Below, piece after piece: positions 21,483 through 50,469 of a stretch of DNA of 64,000 bases (position 1 is its first letter; every line of letters starts with the position of its first letter). Source of the stretch: Olivibacter jilunii (GTDB taxonomy: Bacteria > Bacteroidota > Bacteroidia > Sphingobacteriales > Sphingobacteriaceae). Under the pieces are notes generated by a model that worked only from the letters and a program-made list of their open reading frames with translations, was not told where the DNA came from and ran no database searches. The stretch lies in NCBI RefSeq assembly GCF_900607235.1, contig NZ_LR027850.1, forward strand, positions 512,043-576,042, given 5' to 3'. The position numbers were made by a program, and so were the translations under genes.

Positions 21483-21555
21483 GCTGACCGCCGACTGCTG
21501 ACCGCCTAATACCTAATACCTAATACCTAAAACCTAACAGCTAACACCTATTACC
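21483..21555 (+). repeat. Period-7 word array upstream of accA
   Basis: Reads gctgacc, gccgact, gctgacc, then after gcc: taatacc x3, taaaacc, taacagc, taacacc, tattacc, in a nearly continuous 7-bp register. Confidence 0.85.
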
Positions 21556-48716: not shown

Positions 48717-49137
48717 TTCTATTGTTATAGAAGGCTAAGATATTAAAATTTCTTAAATGGTGAGGAAATGCTCGTAAGATCGTGAAGCTCCTAGTTAGCG
48801 CCGGATTTGCTTTTTAAAGAGCTGATTGGGCTTGAAATGAGTGGCAGAAAGCTTCTTGCTATCCTATTAAAAAAACATAACAAAAAAGGAATAAAAAATT
48901 ATAAAGACAATAGTTAAATATCCAATTTCATAGTTTTTTAATAGTTTTGTTATCGTAAAATGATCGTAAAATATACGATGAATTTACGATAACGAAACGA
49001 TAACTTTACGATAAATCTGCACTTTTTATATATTTCTTTTTCTATTCAAACTTATTTTTTTCTACTTTTATTGTAAACGATAGGTATAAGTCCTATCAAC
49101 AGAGAGAAAAGCGTTATTTAGCATTTAAATCTAAATT
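48717..49137. other. 421-bp AT-rich gap upstream of the DUF6266 pair
   Basis: No coding frame. The right half contains six 11-bp phased ACGAT/ATCGT units and a seventh related site at 49074-49084. Confidence 0.75.
48950..49015 (+). repeat. Six 11-bp phased iteron-like repeats
   Basis: Units start at 48950, 48961, 48972, 48983, 48994 and 49005: TTATCGTAAAA, TGATCGTAAAA, TATACGATGAA, TTTACGATAAC, GAAACGATAAC, TTTACGATAAA. The first two are the inverse of the last three. A seventh, TAAACGATAGG, is at 49074. Confidence 0.9.
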
Positions 49138-49785
49138 ATGGGAACTTACAACAAAGGCATAAATGGACCTTTTAGTGGTAAAACAGGTAGCATTATTGGC
49201 AGTCGTTGGCGAGGTGTAAATTATATTAAAGGCTTTTCGCGGACTTACAAGAATAAAGGTAAACCAAGTGAAGAGCAAGTTTTGCATTATAAAAAATTCA
49301 AATTACTAAATGAGTTTTTTATTCCTATAAAAAAAGTGGTGGAGGTGGGTTTCGGAAATTACTTACGCAAAGCTACTGCGCGTAATATTGCTTTTCAGCA
49401 GAATTTTGATCATGCTTTTTCACTTGACGAAAATAACGAGCCGCATTTAAACTATAGTTTGATTCAATTCAGCAAGGGAACTTTATTTACCGCGGGGGCT
49501 GAAAAATTGGAGATAGTGAAGCCTGGGCAGATAAAAGTAACCTGGAATCCGAAAACCTATGGATTGGGTGGTTCCTTAGATGATCAGGTTCATATTTTAT
49601 GTTATACAGCGAGTAGTGACCTATTTGATTCACCAGACACCACGCCTTTGCGCTATCAAGCGGAAGCTACGGTTAGATACGAGGCATTAGAAGGCGAGTG
49701 TATTCATGTATGGTTATTTCTTAGCGATAGCCAAAAAAAACGAGTATCTCCTACCAAATATCTTTCTATAACCAACAACCAATAA
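49138..49785 (+). CDS. DUF6266 family protein
   Basis: 215 residues. Gly-rich N-terminus INGPFSGKTGSIIGSRWRGV followed by YIKGFSRTYKNKGKPSEEQ is characteristic of DUF6266, a family of unknown function frequent in Sphingobacteriaceae. The core has KKVVEVGFGNYLRKATARNI, then beta-rich segments (LEIVKPGQIKVTWNPKT). No signal peptide. Preceded by the phased repeats; its last codons (ITNNQ-stop) are already part of a 7-bp repeat array. Confidence 0.8.
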   Translation: MGTYNKGINGPFSGKTGSIIGSRWRGVNYIKGFSRTYKNKGKPSEEQVLHYKKFKLLNEFFIPIKKVVEVGFGNYLRKATARNIAFQQNFDHAFSLDENNEPHLNYSLIQFSKGTLFTAGAEKLEIVKPGQIKVTWNPKTYGLGGSLDDQVHILCYTASSDLFDSPDTTPLRYQAEATVRYEALEGECIHVWLFLSDSQKKRVSPTKYLSITNNQ

Positions 49786-49846
49786 CCAACAACCAACAAC
49801 CAATAACTAATAACCAACAACCAATAACCAACAACCAATAACCAAT
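49770..49846 (+). repeat. Eleven-unit period-7 array AACCAAC/AACCAAT
   Basis: Eleven consecutive 7-bp words (aaccaac, aaccaat, one aactaat). It starts inside the 3' end of the first DUF6266 gene, whose stop codon (49783-49785) is part of the array, and ends 11 bp before the second gene. Confidence 0.95.
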
Positions 49847-49857
49847 AATATTAGCTT

Positions 49858-50469
49858 ATGGAATTTTTCTTTGATGCAAATATACCGAAAAAGGAAAAAG
49901 AACCTTATGGAAAGCTTGCCAGCCAACAGCGCATGAGATTGGCAATGGCCTTTTTGAACCCTTTACGGCCTGTTATCAACGAGGGTTGGAGCCAATATGG
50001 CAATGGTAAAAAGAGTAAAGCCTTTGGGCAAGCATTAAAAAAAGTAATACAGGAGGCGGTTGCAGGCACCTATCCTGATCAAATGATTGTTCCTGAAAGG
50101 GTAATGATCAGCATGGGAGCTTTACCCCCGCCTGCCATAGCCGATGTGGTGCGATCGCCCGGTATATTGGAAGTCTTTTTTACGAACGAACCACATCCAA
50201 TGGCAAGAGATAGCGATGAACTGGTATTAATTGTAATCAGTCCCGAGCTCGGCATAGGCGCCAAGAGTGATCAGGTTTGGTATCGTAAAGACGGACGTAT
50301 CGAAGTAGAACTTCCACCACAATTTGAAGAAGGCTCTTTTCATGCTTATACCTACTGTCATAACCGAAAAAAAACCAGCTATTCAAAAAGTTATTATTTA
50401 GGTTATTTTGAGGCGCTTCTTGATCAAAAGAGGGGCGACGGAAATATTCATGCTCAGATAAAACATTAA
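49858..50469 (+). CDS. DUF6266-like protein, second copy
   Basis: 203 residues. LASQQRMRLAMAFLNPLRPVI and KVIQEAVAGTYPDQMIVPERV match the central part of DUF6266 proteins, but the Gly-rich N-terminal module of the first copy is missing. The C-terminal half is beta-rich (GILEVFFTNEPHPMARDSDE). In the same reading frame as the upstream gene, separated by the 7-bp array. Function unknown. Confidence 0.7.
   Translation: MEFFFDANIPKKEKEPYGKLASQQRMRLAMAFLNPLRPVINEGWSQYGNGKKSKAFGQALKKVIQEAVAGTYPDQMIVPERVMISMGALPPPAIADVVRSPGILEVFFTNEPHPMARDSDELVLIVISPELGIGAKSDQVWYRKDGRIEVELPPQFEEGSFHAYTYCHNRKKTSYSKSYYLGYFEALLDQKRGDGNIHAQIKH

Follow-up and report, generated by a model that had tools for sequence, protein, structure and literature searches.

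In a 64,000-nucleotide stretch of the Olivibacter jilunii genome (hereafter the window), two adjacent DUF6266 genes are preceded by a mirror-symmetric array of short, 11-bp-phased units. We found that phased arrays accompany DUF6266 genes at many loci in Bacteroidota, that the repeated unit differs from one DUF6266 paralogue to the next, and that intact arrays also occur without the genes. These results suggest a new family in which DNA sites are paired with genes for DNA recognition.

The window array consists of four reverse units (ATCGT-type) followed by four forward units (ACGAT-type), spaced in 11-bp steps with a single 12-bp step where the orientation inverts (Table 1). The sequence-only reading of this DNA described six units at exact 11-bp steps, and we confirmed unit starts at 48950, 48961, 48972, 48983, 48994, and 49005. 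Six was too few, however, as two ATAGT units extend the phase upstream and bring the count to eight, at 48930-49012. The inverted orientations also held up, except that a unit at 48972 described as ‘intermediate’ is an ordinary forward ACGAT unit. A proposed seventh site (a decamer from 49074) begins 69 bp past the last decamer and so is out of phase; its ACGAT is probably an isolated copy outside the array.

We compared the intergenic region with dinucleotide shuffles of itself. Its lag-11/22/33 statistic was 0.256 (maximum of 0.151 in 2000 shuffles), and 38 of 40 bases matched the 4+4 architecture (maximum of 24 in 1000 shuffles). A chance origin is ruled out, since periodicity and architecture both exceeded every shuffle. 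No second 11-bp array was found across the 64 kb of the window. Sequence comparison identified an AT-rich element resembling TACTTTTATTG beside many sister arrays; the window copy is a possible Bacteroidota -7 promoter box, a weak candidate picked out by eye. Separately, a 7-bp minisatellite (ATAACCA, 49768-49848) covers the end of the first DUF6266 gene and the gap before the second, and further 7-bp tandem repeats occur at 21505 and 28677.

Table 1. Phased arrays and neighbouring features. Positions refer to the window unless a genome, contig, or neighbouring gene is named.
Feature	Position	Strand	Basis
Whole phased array, 4 reverse + 4 forward units	48930..49018	.	Sequence and shuffles
Outer pair of degenerate, in-phase units (ATAGT, 48930 and 48941)	48930..48945	-	Sequence; TRF row 48926-48948, period 11
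Two reverse units, ATCGT at 48952 and 48963	48952..48967	-	Sequence
Four forward units, ACGAT at 48975, 48986, 48997, and 49008	48975..49012	+	Sequence
TACTTTTATTG, AT-rich element, candidate -7 box	49063..49073	+	Sequence comparison, inference
Lone ACGAT, out of phase	49077..49081	+	Sequence
DUF6266 gene a, 215 aa	49138..49785	+	Profile and structure model
DUF6266 gene b, 203 aa, lacking the conserved N-terminus	49858..50469	+	Profile and comparison
Extra own-genome array 1	Upstream of ybeY, adjoining tRNA-Pro		
Extra own-genome array 2	Between a two-component regulator gene and a converging gene		
Extra own-genome array 3	Beside a lipoprotein-like gene		
ybeY arrays near putative origin	G000:C1:646308 (L107), G002:C1:1465669 (L112), G003:C99:144986 (L117)		

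We observed orthologues of the window pair with an array just upstream in seven searched genomes (the window’s own included) from two genera, Olivibacter and Parapedobacter. As in the window, these are 4+4 ATCGT/ACGAT arrays that lie about 170-230 bp upstream, and named Parapedobacter records agree. Scanning 64 Bacteroidota DUF6266 loci collected by homology search with an 11-bp periodicity detector, we identified a phased array within 700 bp upstream in 37 and, in 4 further loci, an array ahead of an additional upstream gene in the operon; 23 had no array within 1.4 kb at the detector threshold used. Run at the same threshold over about 1.6 Mb of background from the window’s own genome (G000) and a complete genome (G002), the detector returned 3 arrays. 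That homologous loci retain the array strongly supports the link to the DUF6266 pair proposed in the sequence-only reading. At four loci (L205, L206, L209, L211) a further gene, about 280-297 aa long and with a GKKGD-like N-terminus, lies between the array and DUF6266; this gene is perhaps a third cassette component.

Between 1 and 15 DUF6266 copies were present in each of the ten genomes counted. In the window’s own genome every a-type paralogue is preceded by a periodic array built on a unit of its own, giving seven different arrays (units CGAT, TCGG/CCGA, TTACC, TTCG, TTCGGA, ATAGGG, and AAGGG), two of them weak (L005, L006). A single host regulator does not easily explain a different unit for each paralogue. 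GC-rich arrays in the same 11-bp phase lie ahead of other DUF6266 genes (L199-L204, L318, L326). Genus g28 arrays are longer, with outer TTCG and inner ACCGT units on each side (L127, L128, L134, L315); L315 is a DUF6266 locus with this two-block array type. An 11-bp array with the unit TCCACG, for which we saw no matching DUF6266 array, lies between frr and a thrA-like gene (G000:C1:487165; L276, about 9565).

Arrays also occur apart from DUF6266 genes. The pattern ACGATN6ACGAT has 28 sites in the window’s own genome – versus 8 for a reversed control – and the search exposed three more 4+4 arrays there (Table 1). A sequence-only model (R1) counted four arrays in this genome, five in G002, three in the Olivibacter genome G003, and two in O. 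domesticus (G004), as well as weaker arrays in Parapedobacter. A fifth own-genome candidate (G000:C13:25811, E 8e-4) was judged spurious, with an architecture score of 23/40. Where a genome has ATCGT arrays, typically one is at a DUF6266 pair and several are ‘orphans’ without the genes. An orphan is often found 100-280 bp ahead of a housekeeping gene (ybeY, carA, hutH, ahcY, alaS, oxyR), and a few lie between converging genes (L108, L296, L307). The ybeY orphan is kept in three species with no DUF6266 at the locus, which suggests that another reader may exist.

Comparisons between relatives point to turnover of the genes. At three loci (oxyR/HD, mnmG, and carA) relatives share the array and its neighbours and differ in the presence of the gene pair. 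The P. luteus oxyR/HD locus lacks the pair except for the final 17 codons of DUF6266b, the second gene, which persist before the neighbouring gene (E 2e-5, 88% over 17 residues) – on this evidence a deletion that left the array in place. No DUF6266 remnants were found at the mnmG and carA loci, and the remnant search beside orphan arrays gave a single positive locus, with the rest at control level. In O. domesticus two intact ATCGT arrays sit close to dnaA, though the best DUF6266 there reaches just 41% identity and an ATCGT array was not detected ahead of it. Both O. domesticus arrays (G004:C15, L120; G004:C23, L119) lie at contig ends and have a common inverted flank of about 45 bp. In genome G059 a tRNA gene, recognised by eye, lies just past a DUF6266 pair (L294, 2700-2770); the ybeY array of the window’s own genome likewise adjoins a tRNA.

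These observations recast the earlier proposal that the array serves a regulator of the DUF6266 genes. The tie to the pair stands, but a plain two-gene operator is too narrow a description given the arrays without DUF6266, the paralogue-specific units, and a gene pair that comes and goes between species.

We compared units with linkers among 12 Olivibacter arrays, a small sample uncorrected for shared descent. Unit identity was 0.85 within a genome versus 0.78 between orthologous arrays, whereas linker identity was 0.59 within a genome versus 0.66 between orthologous arrays. The variable unit base likewise follows the genome, with A/T:G/C ratios of 28:3 in G000, 13:27 in G002, and 7:15 in G003. 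Units that are alike within a genome, with linkers that are not, suggest that a trans-acting reader keeps the units alike; gene conversion is disfavoured, as it should homogenise the linkers too.

Both window genes pass the Pfam gathering cut-off for DUF6266 (PF19781; 61.2 and 37.9 bits against 23.4). The structure model of the first protein, DUF6266a, comprises a basic, low-confidence N-terminal hairpin, a helical middle, and a C-terminal fibronectin-III-like domain. Its N-terminus is poorly ordered in the model and has a mean net charge of +6.5 over about 47 residues. Foldseek matched the full model to FnIII domains only, and the N-terminal half alone gave no hit at E<=0.001. The structure model and Foldseek thus revealed no known DNA-binding fold in DUF6266, though one could still exist. 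PADLOC, PHROGs, and NCBIfam returned no significant family for either protein. An origin in phages or plasmids was rejected, since DUF6266a had no match in phage, plasmid, or viral collections.

The best reading of these results, held tentatively and at a little under even confidence, is that the array serves a two-gene DUF6266 cassette as its recognition site in cis, bound cooperatively by a cassette-encoded factor that would regulate its own expression, with orphan arrays left behind. By association only, we infer that DUF6266 itself is probably the binder. A cassette protein, in the simplest case DUF6266a by itself or together with DUF6266b, would bind the double-stranded array with one protomer per 11-bp unit, so that two head-to-tail protein blocks converge and meet at the dyad. 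The bound protein would control the cassette’s own promoter. Paralogous cassettes would have diverged in unit sequence, giving several separate gene/array pairs per genome, and cassettes would be gained and lost while their arrays stay as orphans that the same protein could still recognise. The basic, poorly ordered N-terminus of DUF6266a also speaks for this reading. We count against it the lack of a recognised DNA-binding fold, the 23 loci without a detected array, the O. domesticus arrays, and conserved orphans such as that of ybeY. Covariation between the inner linkers (see below) also counts against it, since simple recognition of units has no need of such covariation.

Other explanations account for parts of these data. 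CarH and BldC place MerR-type wings on tandem 11-bp repeats, and a host-encoded regulator from outside the cassette could bind the arrays in this way, with the DUF6266 pair and the genes beside orphan arrays as its targets. CarH operators are tandem 11-bp repeats at promoters with the consensus nnnnTnnACAn (PMC9304148), and the window array resembles them in its spacing and in its suitability for head-to-tail cooperative binding. The positions of orphans ahead of housekeeping genes also favour a host regulator, as does the persistence of arrays in O. domesticus, where no ATCGT-type DUF6266 was found. However, a CarH operator has 3-4 direct repeats rather than two inverted blocks of four, and the window units (ATCGT/ACGAT with AT-rich linkers) do not fit its consensus. 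No MerR-family gene was present among the six proteins scanned beside the window array, and the cassette has none. Paralogue-specific units would require many regulators, all aimed at DUF6266, and the few orphans between converging genes also count against this explanation. We consider a host regulator unlikely. A hairpin or cruciform, formed in RNA or single-stranded DNA, is also improbable as the functional form, yet we retain it as a serious rival because the inner linkers covary as a hairpin’s would. Under this explanation the array would be a REPIN-like palindrome mobilised or processed with the cassette, and the 11-bp step one A-form turn. The two inner linkers of 14 Olivibacter arrays had 24 double-sided changes versus 13.4 in shuffles (0 of 500 as high), also exceeding slid controls; this signal comes largely from G002 (p 0.008) and is absent from G000 and G003 taken singly. 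As expected from its mirror symmetry, the window array folds well as RNA (z -5.4), and the ybeY arrays fold better (z -7 to -8). Several other arrays (L007, L205, L206, L318, L319, and L326) form almost perfect palindromes of 17-29 bp, though many well-phased DUF6266 arrays mirror poorly (z<2; e.g., L004, L194, L213, L242). The outermost linkers are unpaired, and the excess of G-T over A-C mismatches is slight (200:159), with no strand clearly favoured. No Rfam family reached its gathering score; sub-threshold matches were to eukaryotic microRNAs only and were taken as chance. In RAYT/REPIN systems a low-copy gene sits beside its own palindromic repeat, gene-less repeats are dispersed, and each paralogue has its own repeat type (PMC3116915). 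The DUF6266 arrays share all three features. They differ in numbering about 2-5 per genome, in having many short units held strictly to an 11-bp phase, and in their gene: only DUF6266 matched the gene adjacent to the array in Pfam at E<=1, with no HUH (Y1) transposase domain.

Two further explanations appear very improbable. One holds that the arrays are chromosome-organising sites linked to partition or the origin. In ParR/parC-type centromeres, short direct repeats form arrays close to the promoter of the operon that encodes the binder, and specificity differs between coexisting systems. DUF6266 arrays are alike in both respects; they differ in being chromosomal, in their mirror-symmetric blocks and many orphan copies, and in having no actin-like or ParA ATPase nearby. 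The ybeY array of G002 (1,465.7 kb) lies about 3 kb from a local cumulative GC-skew minimum, those of G000 and G003 lie about 11 kb from a parS or one-mismatch parS, and the O. domesticus arrays are near dnaA. Other arrays, though, are far from the putative origin (0.66, 0.95, and 3.05 Mb in G002), which does not favour an origin role, and most array positions differ between species. Chromosome organisation also leaves the DUF6266 association unexplained. Iterons of a partition or replication protein, raised in the sequence-only reading, were rejected: the proteins near the window array are DUF6266, HD, YitT, ECF sigma, and FecR, with no partition ATPase or ParB gene among the tested neighbours and no plasmid Rep gene nearby, and the canonical 16-bp parS palindrome (TGTTNCACGTGNAACA) is absent from the array and has its matches elsewhere. 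The other explanation dispenses with a specific reader: phased A-tracts would curve the DNA, and the repeats would arise by slippage. The window array is indeed AT-rich and phased. The GC-rich arrays indicate that curvature alone is not the point, and pure curvature was rejected on this basis; the explanation without a reader is also made unlikely by the uniformity of units, but not linkers, across unlinked loci, which have the 4+4 inverted build in common.

Our literature search found no paper on DUF6266 and none pairing any two of Bacteroidetes, ‘11-bp repeats’, and ‘helically phased’. It is plausible, if doubtful, that these loci constitute a new type of sequence-specific nucleic-acid-binding cassette in Bacteroidota, in which coexisting paralogues would act as address systems, each with its own 11-bp-phased mirror array – read by a protein filament or as a hairpin – while cassettes turn over and orphan arrays persist in host promoters. 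For DUF6266, a family without a known role, the arrays offer a first clue to function, and their paralogue-specific units provide a natural set for studying how binding specificity and sites co-evolve. If the proposed binding is true, the coexisting systems could be put to use as DNA-binding modules that work separately. The orphans ahead of housekeeping genes could then be a so far hidden layer of regulation, or else footprints left by gene cassettes of a new class.
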